Origin: Diphasiastrum complanatum
Taxonomy: Eukaryota; Streptophyta; Lycopodiopsida; Lycopodiales; Lycopodiaceae
Assembly (NCBI GenBank): GCA_029204225.1
Contig: CM055092.1
Coordinates: 59,642,077 to 59,706,076 of the forward strand
Length of the DNA: 64,000 nt
Direction: 5' to 3'
Shown here: positions 33,701-45,700 of the stretch, in pieces
Layout: every line of letters starts with the position of its first letter
How positions within the stretch are numbered: the stretch's first letter is position 1
The notes under the pieces: model-generated
What the model saw: the letters and a program-made list of their open reading frames with translations, nothing else
What the model was told of the DNA's origin: nothing
Database searches by the model: none
Translations under genes and position numbers: made by a program

Positions 33701-36700
33701 TCTCTACTAGATGACAAAAAGAGAAATGGATAAGAGTTGAGAATCTCTCTTTTTGAGAATCTTAGACCTACAAGAGTAGCCTCACATGCTTCTTGATAGG
33801 TTCTAGACCTACACATCACTATGAAGACTAAGAAGTAACTTGACTCTAATTGAAAGTTTTACTTGACTAGCCTACCTCAAGTTTGGACAAACCCCAAAAC
33901 TTGAATCTCTAAGTTTGATATTATTTAATTTTACAATACTTTCACATCTCCACATGAGTCGAATTTTTTTGATTCAGTCGAATCCTCGGTCCTCGGATTT
34001 CTCTCATCAAACAGCTCAAGATCATGCCAAGATTTGTTCAGATCAAACTTTGGGAAGTAGTCTAGCAGATATTCTACATTCTCAAATTTTGGTCACTTGT
34101 CTGTTTTTAGGAGAATTTTGTTTCCTTTAATAAGATGTTTCTATTGCATTTACAATCCTTTATTTGAATCACTAGAAGTTCACTTGCTAAGTTTTCCAAT
34201 TTTTCAAGTTTTTGGAACTTCATCTCTTTCGTACTTTTTCAGACAGCCTTGCATATTCGTTCTTCCTTTTTTACAGATCAAAAACATCAAAACTTAAAAG
34301 ATCACTTTCTGATTTTCCACCGTTCGATAGTTTTTGGTACTAATATTTTTTTCACTTTTCTTTGAACGTTTCAGAAGATGCTTACATCAATGTTCTTCTA
34401 GTGATAGGAAACTCCTATTGCAGTTTATGGCTTGCCAAAATGAAATCTAGAGGTTAGGGAGAACAATACAAACTTTTTAGAGGTTTTGCCACTTCATCTC
34501 CTCTTCACCTTGCTATATCATTCTTTATCCTGTTATATTTCACCACATACCTTTTGTAGCCATCTATTTGCATATTTGCAGATCCAAAATGGCTTTTTCG
34601 AGCTGTGCATGATCTACCTCAATCATTAATGATCACTCTATAAGTTATGTTTCTACAACTTATATTGGTTCTTATGGATGTCCATATCCTCATGTGTTTG
34701 TGCATCATCCTGGTTATAATTCAGTTCACAGTTATTGTTGTGATTGCAGCCAGCTTAGCTACTTGAGAATCCACAGATACATCCTTGTCCTTCATCATTT
34801 ACTTTTCAATCATTTGTTTCATATATTGCTGCACCTATTTCTTATTCACAACTTTTTACTCATTTCCTCTACATTGTCAATTCCATATCCACACCATAGT
34901 GTCACTTCTCAACCGTCTTTCTTATTTGTTCCATCCTCTTCATCCATTCCACATGCACTACACAGACTAAATCTTCCTTTAACAGGCATCTTATTATTTT
35001 TGTTGTGTGTACATCCCCTTGAAATCCAATTCATACATCCATTTTTCCATCTACTCAGTCCATTACTACCATTGCTGTGTTGCTTCCTCTACAATTAAAA
35101 GCCTAGGACATAGTTCTGATATGAGAAATTTCCTACTAGTCAGAACACAGATACATGTATCTTCAACATAAGTTAAGGTGCTTACAGATGAGAATCTACT
35201 TGCACCCACAAGACTTGTGGGTCAGAGAAAGAGACAAGAAGCTCAAAGTTTAAGACATGTACCAAAAATAAAAACTTGTAGCTGAGATAGAAATATCAGC
35301 AAAAGAAACTTCAACCAGCTTCAAGGATTTTCCCTCTGGAGCATAGACAGAGATGTGTGCATTAGCTGGTTACATTCATTCTATTTCTGGAATCGCTACT
35401 TTTAATTTGTAAATGAGAGATAGTGTGAACCAACTTGGTAAAGAATCCTATCGTATGAAGGTGCTTTACCAGTGAAAATGGTAGCAGAAGTTCATGCACA
35501 TAACAATGACATGTTCATGGAGAAAAGACTTATGCATGCAATAGAATATACTAAAGATGGAATTAATATCTCACAGAAACATTCACATAATAACACGCAT
35601 AGAGGGGCCAAGATGGGACACCCCCCCCCCCCCTTCTCATGGTAGGGTATGCAGCTCGCATGACAGTAGGAACTCTGGCCCCTATGTCGTGGAGTGTCAT
35701 CATCGTCACTATCATCTGGCTCTAGATCAATCTGTGGTCTTCTACGAGAGAAGAATTATGTGATCTGGAGTTGTGTGTCGGAGTGACTCGGCTGAGCTAG
35801 CTAGCAAAGATCATGTCGTAGTAGAAATATCTCTCGTAATCTCCCTCTGATCTCGTAATAAAGTGCTCCTCTGACTCCACCTCAAATAAGGAACATAGCT
35901 TGCAAATCCTTTCCTCTCTGGGGATGCCCCGGAAGCGTCCAATCTCAATCGCCACTGATGTGAGGAGACTCGGAGCTATCCCAATATGAATCTAATCCTG
36001 AATCAAAATAGCGTGGTAAAACTGGGAGCCCAACTGCATCTAACTCCAAAAATTTGGTCTAACAGTAGAGTTTGACCTGACTGGCCATGCCATGCTTGAT
36101 CAAAATATGCTCTATATAATAAGCATCTAATATAATCATGGGTGCCCAATGAAAGATCAGTGATAGAAATGTCAACCGAATCAAGTAACTGAGAGGCCTA
36201 TGAAAACCATGATAGTCGATAACCTTGACCATGAAGATACTAAGATGATGTGTGTATCTCTGTTCATTTGTGGAGAATAACATGTCTCGCTGGATATATA
36301 TCTGATAAGTCGCAAGATGACATCAAGCTCTAAAGGTGGAACTGCAAACTCTACCAAAATGACCTGATGTGGGATGAAGGGCTTAGCATGTATCATGCAT
36401 GATCACATAAGAACCTGCAAACATGAAATAGTGGCCCAATCTGATGAAGTGAGACTTGTGCACCATGCCTCTGCTGCATATAGGGCAATGGGAGTAATAA
36501 TAGTATCAAAGAGTCGACACTTTATCAATGCATCTTGAATAAATCATAAAAAACAGAACCTCTCTAGCTGGACAAGGGAAGCGTGGCGCTTCCCAAGTCT
36601 AGTGGAAGCTGCTTGTCTCATGTCAAATATAGGACCGGTAAAGAGGACCCCTAGATAAGTCTAGGATGATACAATCTCCAGTGTGTCCGTCTAATATGTT

Positions 36701-42700: not shown

Positions 42701-45700
42701 TGCTGAGGCAGAATGGCAGCTCAAGGCTTTTGCCGAGGCAGCGATGGCAGCTCAAGGCTTTGGAGAGAGAGAAAGAAAGATCTTTATTAATGTCCATGGA
42801 GTACCCTAAGGTACATAGGACTGAAAAAAAGGTACATGTCAAGTGTGCACGGTGGGAGCGTGAAAGCTCAACCACCTAAAAGAAACAAGATTACAATAAA
42901 ACAAGAAATTGTGCTATGCACAAGGAGAGTCAAGCATCATAGATGTCTCTCTGCTTTGTGAGAAAAAAAAAATGATGTTAAGTATGTTGTGGCACTGTCT
43001 CTGTGCGAGCTGCGTCTCTCTGTCGTCGAGTAGATGATCGATGGTGTCTACGCTGTCGTGAAGTTGCAGGCCGTGGCCTGCGGGCTGGCTGTCTCTCTGG
43101 TCGACGACACTGCCTCTGCCGTCTATGTATGGTGGCATCTGGAATCTCAGCCTCTCCATCAAAGTCACTACTCTCCTGCCTCTGTCTCCGACGGGATAGA
43201 CACTCCTGTATACTCTGATACTCGGATACGACCAATAACTTGTCTATACAATGCCACAACTGCCTGTATGATATCCTCTTGGAGGCCACGGTCCCGAAGT
43301 CTCTGTATCAGTAGATGTCGAGGCACAGAGTCAAAGGCCTTGCGGAAATCCACAAAGCAGTAGTATACACGCTCTCTCTTGGCCTTAGCTTCCTCAATGA
43401 TGGATCTCAGGGTGAAAATATGATCTGATGTGGTATATCCTGGTCTGAAACCTGCTTGACCTATGGCATGCAGTGCTCGGGTATCCATCTCTCTGACTGA
43501 AGAATAGAACCATAAACCTTGGCAAAGAGATGACTGATCATGGTGGTACGATAGTTGTCGACTTTCATGGGATCAGCGCCTTTTTGGATAGCGTGGATAA
43601 GGTTTGTGGACCAGGGTGAGGGGAAACCAGATGTGATAGAGCGGTTAAATAGGAGAGAGAGGAAGGGTGAGAGAATGTCAACAGCTTGCGTCAAAAGTTC
43701 AGCTTCTAGATCATCAATATCCTTGGCCTTATGTAGATTTAATCGGTCAATGGCCTCTTCTACTATGGCTGGAGAGAATATATCATAAGTACATGTGTAG
43801 GGATGTGTAGGAAGTGGAGGGGTGTCAGGAATAGTGTGAGACGACAATCCCATGAAATAGTCAACAACACTACTCCCTCCACTGTGTGGGAAACAAGTAA
43901 ATTCACCTGAATCAGGCCACTGCAATAAGCCATTATAAATGGCCAATCCATGAGCCTCGCCCAACTGAAGCATCTACTCTCCGTATTCAGTAACTGGACC
44001 CTCTACATCTGCTGATCGTCGCCGGAGGCCAAGATCATCCCAGTCTAAAGCATGTATCCGTTGTGGATCATCCTCTACTCTATGGAACTCTGTCTGCTTG
44101 GACCCAGTCCTGGCATTAAAGTCGCCAGCTAAAAGAACATAACCCCGCTCCTCATATCGATAATGTCTGAAGAGATATCCATGTAAGGTGACTCCTCATC
44201 TGCTGTGAAAACTGAGGTGTCTGGTGAAAAATAACAAATGGCCAAAAAGAGGTCACGGGTCAATCCCATCAAAGTCCGGTCCACCCGAATCCAAATATAG
44301 CGAGCTCGCTCATCTGTATGCACCAACTCGACCCAAGGCCAAATGAAGTCACGGACTAAGCAGGCCACCCCACCAGAACCCCGATCTGTCAATGCTCTCG
44401 TCGACAGCCGATGTGCAGAGTACCAGCAAAAACCCGTAACAACAGGTAGACCTCTTTCCGAACTCTCATGTGTCTCTGTGAACAGAAAGAGATCACCCTC
44501 CGCACAAAAGTCTCTAAAATCACCGACAATAGCCGAGGAGTGAATGCCATTGCAGTTCCATAGCCTCAACCGCAATGCTCGAGGAGGACCCCCCGAACCG
44601 CTTAGTCCGAGGGGCCTTAATCCCTATTTGACAGAATTCGGAGGATCAATGTATCGAGCCTTGCCATCCCGATAAATTACCCTCTTCCCCAAAGCTTTTG
44701 CCTCAATAAATGCTTTTTTCCGATCCACAACTTGCATGGGAGTGAGATCATCATCCATAAATATCAGTGTACCTCTAAGCTTGGCCCGCAGTTTGAGAGC
44801 TGCCCGTCTCTCTTCCAGATTCGTGAAGCGAACTATGAGTGTAGAGGGGTCTCTCTTGGTTCTCCAAGCTCTATCCAACCCTTCAGAGTGACGGGAGAGT
44901 GTGCTTGAGAGAAAGCTGGCTGCTTCAGTCATTGGATCGTTGGTGTCTTCAACTCCGCGGACCCTAATATTCAGGGCTTTGTATTCTCGCATTCGCTCTT
45001 CGGATATGGTGGCCGAAATGACTCGGTTGAAGGATGGTGTACCCTCCCTAACATCCTCCTTGAACAGAGAAGCCCACGATTTTGTCTCAGCCTTATGTTG
45101 CTCTATCTTCTCTTCCGAATCTTGAATCTTAGTAGGTTCTCCTTGGTTACTTATTGCTGCCTCCAAAGAAGTAATCTGGGCTAACATGATTTCTCGTTCA
45201 GCGGCCATAGTGTGAATGACCGTTTGAAGCTGTCCCATTTCTTTCCGTAGAAAGGTGGGTTCGTTCTTGATTTGCTCGATGTAGGAGAAAATGTATTGCT
45301 CGAATGATTTGGCAGGTGTATAGATCTCAGGTATCAAGAAAGAGGAGAGAGAGAGAGAGAGAGAGAGAGAGAGAGAGAGAGAGAGAGAGAGAAAGAGAGT
45401 AACAAAATTTCACATAGTCCCTCTTGACCCTTCAATTTATAGCATAACAGGTAAAAATACAGCTGTATAAAGTTTAACAATACAGAGTACCATAAAGCGA
45501 AGCAAGTTTTAGGACGCCCAGCTGTTACCTGCCACCATCCCACACAACAAAACCGCACAAGTTAGTCGCGTGAGGAGGACAGGTGTCATAGTTGAGCATC
45601 AATTGTTATCCATGTCCGAAACACGATTCACTGCTTTATCAGCTAGATTGCATTAACAACAAGTACGTCCAATCTTCCCAATCACTCACTTTCTAAATTA

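Follow-up and report, generated by a model that had tools for sequence, protein, structure and literature searches.

We analysed a stretch of 64,000 nucleotides from Diphasiastrum complanatum (Lycopodiaceae; GenBank assembly GCA_029204225.1, contig CM055092.1, positions 59,642,077 to 59,706,076 of the forward strand), hereafter the window, in which copies of long interspersed nuclear elements (LINEs) follow one another on the same strand and are joined by tracts of the dinucleotide repeat CT. All counts given here refer to this one 64-kb window. It has the character of plant nuclear DNA, with an enolase exon on the minus strand that matches enolases and with Copia- and Gypsy-type proteins recognised by eye. 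Homology comparison within the window placed the LINE copies in four runs, each confined to one strand, and run B is flanked by enolase-like exon pieces, one checked by matching and the other identified by eye. The runs, copies and tracts are listed below in window positions, with the LN labels of an earlier reading made from the letters alone (the sequence-only reading) in brackets; ORF stands for open reading frame, RT for reverse transcriptase and UTR for untranslated region.

Run A, the main chain: 35.6-45.4 kb, minus strand, LINE homology
45336..45399, minus strand: opening CT tract, with no LINE 3' end detectable upstream of it
42781..45335, minus strand: A1 (LN12), internally deleted; ORF1 truncated on the 5' side, a piece resembling an endonuclease, a piece of RT, then 3' UTR and stem-loop
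42466..42762, minus strand: A2 (LN11), another subfamily; stem-loop, (TATTC)n and then (CT)n tail; 5' part without a sibling
42068..42434, minus strand: A3 (LN10), CT-rich DNA and a short RT fragment (matched at 42191-42118), without a LINE 3' end
40341..41981, minus strand: A4 (LN9), RT through 3' end, frame open for 444 codons
40192..40309, minus strand: A5 (LN8), 3' UTR only
38473..40067, minus strand: A6 (LN7), from the RT on, without a 3' end, decayed
36911..38440, minus strand: A7 (LN6), start not at CT, 3' end complete
36812..36887, minus strand: A8 (LN5), about 76 bp of 3' UTR flanked by two CT tails
35640..36779, minus strand: A9 (LN4), RT piece, most decayed among the measured copies, without a 3' end
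CT tracts of the main chain, minus strand: 42772-42763, 42464-42435, 42066-41982 (85 bp, preceding A4), 40321-40310, 36901-36888 and 36791-36780
Run B: 18.5-23.8 kb, minus strand, LINE homology
22587..23801, minus strand: B1 (LN3), decayed, start not at CT, 3' end complete
20534..22558, minus strand: B2 (LN2), begins where the CT tail of B1 ends; closely related to A1
18555..20378, minus strand: B3 (LN1), starts at a CT tract; leader of 596 nt to the first in-frame methionine, then ORF1; without a 3' end
CT tracts of run B, minus strand: 22579-22559 and 20533-20380 (154 bp, the tail of B2)
Run C: 46.5-48.6 kb, plus strand, LINE homology
46517..47018, plus strand: C1, start not at CT; an ORF2 piece that lacks 3' UTR and stem-loop and leads into a tail like that of A2 and into CT
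47144..48567, plus strand: C3, starts at a CT tract; leader of 545 nt to the first in-frame methionine, then ORF1; without a 3' end
Run D: 58.1-60.7 kb, plus strand, LINE homology
58085..58907, plus strand: D1, CT tract at neither border
58930..60089, plus strand: D2, start not at CT, 3' end complete
60173..60280, plus strand: D3, 3' UTR only, CT tract on each side
60360..60749, plus strand: D4, last of its run; start without a nucleotide sibling; tail enters DNA without LINE matches
CT tracts, plus strand: 47121-47143, 60090-60172 (one internal G) and 60281-60359

CT tracts at the joins and starts of LINE copies

The sequence-only reading had described a same-strand chain of LINE copies joined by CT tracts, and this is confirmed by the homology comparison, which finds LINE sequence on both sides of the tracts and a single strand in each run; the tract positions it gave were reproduced to within 1 base. 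With both phases counted, the window holds 18 CT/GA tracts of at least 10 nt, one GT tract and none of AC, AT or CG, and LINE pieces are bordered by 15 of the 18 CT/GA tracts. Eight of the 11 complete LINE tails lead through a CT tract directly into another copy on the same strand, two reach such a copy through a CT-rich spacer, and one, at 60,749, enters DNA without LINE matches. The CT tract at the direct junctions is 10-21 bp long in five of the eight, and at three of them (A1-A2, B2-B3 and D3-D4) the next start lacks a nucleotide sibling that would prove the border. Poly(A) junctions were not seen; LINE junctions here are CT or pyrimidine-rich.

The CT borders claimed earlier hold for most copies and fail at the LN7/LN6 border near 38,440 and at the starts near 23,801, 46,517, 58,085 and 58,930. 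Some of the proposed tail-to-start junctions also need qualification. At 42,435 and 40,170, CT-rich spacers of about 245 and 100 bp, respectively, come before the next LINE homology. At 41,982 a CT tract does precede A4, but the upstream piece, A3, has no LINE 3' end, so that the tract is not visibly a tail. A covariance-model scan likewise detected no LINE 3' end upstream of the opening tract (45399-45336), and the idea that this tract is a decayed LINE tail found no support from the model, which is roughly calibrated and was trained on the same ends.

The possibility that the tracts are internal parts of the LINE was ruled out by sibling comparison at five borders (A6, A8, A9, B2 and D3), where the sibling has ordinary LINE sequence at the point at which the copy has CT.

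Of 18 starts placed by eye from homology and tracts, 12 follow a CT tract of the same strand at a distance of no more than 5 bp and 13 at no more than 10 bp, a count that is partly circular, with tract and start seen together, and that covers the sense strand. Because tract and start had been seen together, starts were counted again from homology alone, for 12 copies. Six of these 12 lie at most 10 bp downstream of a same-strand CT tract, as do 0.15% of positions (p 1.3e-14); the distances are 0 bp for B2 and A9, 1 bp for A4, 4 bp for D3, 9 bp for A6 and A8, and 37 bp for A5. None of the 12, the five non-CT starts included, has a GA tract within 1.1 kb upstream. Insertion at CT tracts with a fixed orientation to the repeat, as the sequence-only reading had proposed, is supported: CT stands on the sense strand at 13 of 18 starts and GA at none of 12, in counts that are not fully independent because the tails themselves place CT on the sense strand. 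B3 and C3, which carry a long leader and ORF1, also start at CT tracts; both are without siblings, and these are possible full-length starts.

Two further regularities were observed at the starts. In two pairs of copies, those starting at 40067 and 22558 and those starting at 42191 and 41981, the points of the RT at which the copies begin agree to within about 10 bp and about 2 bp, respectively; such coincidence could reflect a site where the RNA is weak or where joining takes place. In addition, the LINE-side end of the tract is followed directly by AG in 5 of 13 cases (36888, 36780, 47097, 47143 and 60172), so that the sequence reads (CT)nCAG and has the form of a splice acceptor; the base rate of AG is 6.6% (p 0.001, post hoc).

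A common 3' end on unlike and unequally decayed copies

Alignment of the 11 complete 3' ends revealed a two-helix stem-loop common to all of them, with compensatory changes, and RNAalifold without an input structure returned the same two-helix stem-loop as had been drawn by eye. Pairing is kept in 97.0% of 99 cells, compared with 89.4 +/- 1.5 in shuffles, 12 cells are changed on both sides of the stem compared with 4.0, and covariation is 0.424 compared with 0.252, none of these values being reached in 500 shuffles. Each of the three also exceeds all six slid controls, which pair at 29-50%. A covariance-model scan of the window, with a rough calibration and a model trained on the same 11 ends that it scores, gave 48-60 bits for these ends and 15 bits (E=0.2) for the next match, elsewhere. 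Downstream of the stem-loop stands ATTAATAAAG or a near variant, followed by a pyrimidine tail built of TTTC units in seven ends and of TATTC in one (A2), or consisting directly of CT in three; 10 of the 11 tails lead into CT. Judged by sequence, the copies have a conserved 3' stem-loop, as stringent-type LINEs do, and their RT would recognise it. This known recognition element was absent from the account given by the sequence-only reading.

The copies combine a constant 3' end with 5' truncation, since the 11 3' ends are of one type and the starts range from ORF1 to the 3' UTR. Their RT is LINE-like (Pfam RVT_1, E=2.2e-26), and R2 and L1 ORF2 proteins are among its best solved-structure relatives by sequence. 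The nuclease may be of the apurinic/apyrimidinic endonuclease (APE) type. The earlier claim of such a nuclease is weakly supported by an Exo_endo_phos match of one endonuclease piece, which at E=0.022 and 15 bits lies below the Pfam cut-off of 24.5; a second piece had no Pfam match, and a search of solved structures with the endonuclease piece returned nothing relevant. The GDFNAR motif of the second piece, read by eye, is one that we take to be typical. Relative to its sibling B2, A1 has an internal deletion at 43215-43217, from the RT to the C-terminus of ORF2.

By stem and flank the 3' ends sort into several subfamilies, a grouping of our own. Consecutive 3' ends within a run are 0.41-0.86 identical (8 pairs, mean 0.59), and the mean of the other 47 pairs is 0.56. 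The closest relative of a 3' end lies in another run in six of 11 cases and in the same run in five, and it is the directly adjacent copy in one case only (A4 with A5, 0.54). A1 is closest to B2, in another run about 22 kb away; their 3' ends are 95% identical, and the identity is 91-93% when longer stretches are compared.

Decay is also uneven. Rough counts of disruptions per aligned codons are 0/444 for A4, 9/342 for A6, 6/364 for A7 and 13/317 for A9 in the main chain, and 9/284 for B1, 2/432 for B2, 1/164 for C1, 3/270 for D1 and 4/278 for D2 in the other runs; A1, A2, A3, A5, A8, B3, C3, D3 and D4 are excluded from the count, and the zero of A4 rests on its open frame, because A4 served as the reference. 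Among the four measured copies of the main chain, the 3'-most, A9, is the most decayed, and the open-frame copy A4 lies upstream of it. Since neighbours are mostly of different subfamilies and the measured copies differ in decay, a series of insertions at different times is a better fit than a single event.

Proposed insertion into CT tracts and competing explanations

These observations are probably best explained by plant LINEs of the stringent type that use target-primed reverse transcription to enter (CT)n·(GA)n, with the tract itself as the target. The window presents a common stem-loop, runs of one orientation, a mixture of subfamilies and degrees of decay, and CT borders at roughly one in two of the starts that could be tested. 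By analogy with stringent-type LINEs (PMC3747384, PMC4176376), the RT would recognise the conserved stem-loop of the LINE RNA. The pyrimidine tail, of UUUC or UAUUC units or of CU, would then pair with the nicked GA strand and prime synthesis, and this pairing would set the orientation of the insertion. A staggered cut may duplicate the CT repeats, so that the new copy has them at either end and one pad becomes two, slippage may lengthen the pads, and later copies of any related subfamily could insert into either of them.

The closest competitor is nesting in tails only, as in the sequence-only reading and in the Zepp model, according to which the CT tracts are grown tails and new copies land only in old tails; we regard this as unlikely, although several observations fit it. 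The eight direct tail-to-copy junctions are what it predicts, and in run B a decayed upstream copy, B1 (9 disruptions in 284 codons), precedes a young one, B2 (2 in 432), so that run B also fits the claim that old tails receive new copies. The claim gives only part of the picture in the main chain, where the 3'-most copy is the most decayed of those measured, where the first tract has no detectable LINE end before it, and where the piece in front of the tract at 41982 lacks a LINE 3' end; moreover, different tail units lead into CT. We favour the tract, and not only old tails, as the target because the chain opens on CT without a detectable LINE 3' end, because both TTTC and TATTC tails lead into CT, and because the most decayed of the measured main-chain copies is the 3'-most.

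The remaining alternatives account for less of the pattern. Template jumping is known for R2-type enzymes, and a single reverse-transcription event across several LINE RNAs, building the chain at once, would produce head-to-tail order and one orientation; it is highly improbable for a chain whose members mostly belong to different subfamilies with very unequal decay and in which the nearest relative of A1 lies in another run. We hold it to be extremely improbable that CT repeats mediated tandem duplication or unequal exchange, or that the assembly was falsely joined at them. CT repeats do invite both, and tracts of 79-154 bp could mislead short-read assembly, but the adjacent copy is the closest relative for a single 3' end, the short CT tracts at five of the eight direct junctions are short for a false join, and a false join would not generate CT at copy starts. 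Both template jumping and tandem duplication are discounted, since most neighbouring copies show little likeness and decay is uneven. It is also very unlikely that no targeting took place, with LINEs gathering where they are tolerated and CT borders arising when truncated complementary DNA was joined by short homology to pyrimidine runs: by eye, the relatives of A8, A9 and D3 do have a short pyrimidine run near the break, and five of 12 starts are not at CT, but B2 shows no such homology by eye, and tolerance alone accounts for neither the CT tracts nor the single orientation.

Several points weigh against insertion into CT tracts as we propose it. Five of the 12 homology-only starts (A7, B1, D1, D2 and C1) lie 1.7-38 kb from CT, and the CT border may have been lost by deletion at some of them; the starts of A1, A2, A3, B3, C3 and D4 are without a nucleotide sibling. 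The tail of A5 leads into TTCCTCCC, not into clean CT. Three tracts that are not associated with LINEs (8571, 29941 and 33663) carry no insertion, although two of these belong to one direct-repeat pair, and target-site duplications are indistinguishable inside a repeat. As regards the separateness of the insertions, A5 and A7, members of one chain that are separated by a single copy, are mutual closest relatives (0.86), the adjacent D3 and D4 are 0.76 alike, and decay was measured against A4 itself at 40-67% identity. For the stem-loop, the number of stem pairs with a change on both sides (4) was reached by 87 of 500 shuffles, and the number of stem pair types (7) by 498 of 500. The assignment of the nuclease to the APE type is weak.

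The proposed insertion into CT tracts suggests a more general idea, which we put forward tentatively. A guild of LINE subfamilies may use one (CT)n pad that each insertion duplicates, leaving CT on both sides, so that the system would be self-renewing and locked in orientation, used in turn by older and younger families, and the source of most of the region's CT microsatellites (15 of 18 tracts). If this is true, a transposon makes and multiplies its own landing sites, an origin is suggested for long CT microsatellites and for one-directional LINE clusters in large plant genomes, and the window would be a natural example of a LINE whose orientation is set by pairing of tail and target and not by nuclease specificity alone.

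Known systems and other features of the window

The ingredients of the proposed system are known singly, and what would be new is their combination in a plant with several subfamilies per chain. A land-plant LINE with a CT tail and a CT pad was not found in the open-licence literature, subscription papers being mostly outside the search. By analogy, the system would work like Zepp arrays and like microsatellite-targeting LINEs. Waldo and Dong are non-LTR (long terminal repeat) retrotransposons that target microsatellites. Togen of fish inserts into (TG)n and some HERO families also target microsatellites, both being described as of the restriction-like endonuclease type (PMC4640811); the insertion into a simple repeat proposed here would be shared with them, whereas the elements described here would use CT/GA in a plant host, form chains and are probably, on a weak assignment, of the APE type.

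Zepp and ZeppL of green algae are reported to target existing copies by nested insertion, giving tandem arrays in which 3' ends predominate and 5' truncation is frequent (PMC8226300, citing Higashiyama 1997); Zepp ends in poly(A) (PMC3747384, Table 3), and in Coccomyxa each chromosome has a single cluster, which is probably centromeric (PMC3446292). The chains of the window may likewise have formed by nested insertion, but the junctions here are CT with several subfamilies per chain, and run B sits between enolase-like exon pieces. Zepp nests in copies of its own family; neighbours in the window are related to one another and belong mostly to different subfamilies. Head-to-tail LINE arrays of one orientation are likewise formed by HeT-A, TART and TAHRE at the chromosome ends of Drosophila (PMC10088271), although the telomeric position and the poly(A) tails described there are theirs only.

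A conserved 3' stem-loop whose stem changes keep pairing has been described for an L1 lineage of maize and sorghum (PMC3747384), and this feature is common to that lineage and the copies reported here. Table 3 of the same 2013 review gives (A)n for 224 of 233 L1 families of flowering plants and no tail for 9. It has (TTG)n or (TTGATG)n for 7 RTE families, and among its units for green algae are (CA)n, (CAA)n and (CTATTT)n (PMC3747384). No CT or TTTC tail is listed in that table, which covers no ferns, lycophytes, mosses or gymnosperms; its unit nearest to the TATTC tail seen here is the (CTATTT)n of green algal RandI (PMC3747384).

Searches of other collections gave no relatives: in viral contigs, five stretches fitted a search pattern, none of them encoding a relative, and another search gave no exact matches, and a collection of prokaryote genomes held no exact match to one 21-base pattern. 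Elsewhere in the window, 17646-18170 contains tandem repeats, 178 and 68 bp in length, that carry a motif resembling CAGCGCCCTACTACC, and the nearby segment 18476-18570 recurs in inverted orientation at 53603-53700. Two pairs of direct repeats were also noted: 29705-30228 and 33400-33951, which are 93% identical, lie around Copia-like reading frames and resemble long terminal repeats, and 51871-52543 and 56147-56812, 92% identical, lie inside Gypsy-like sequence.

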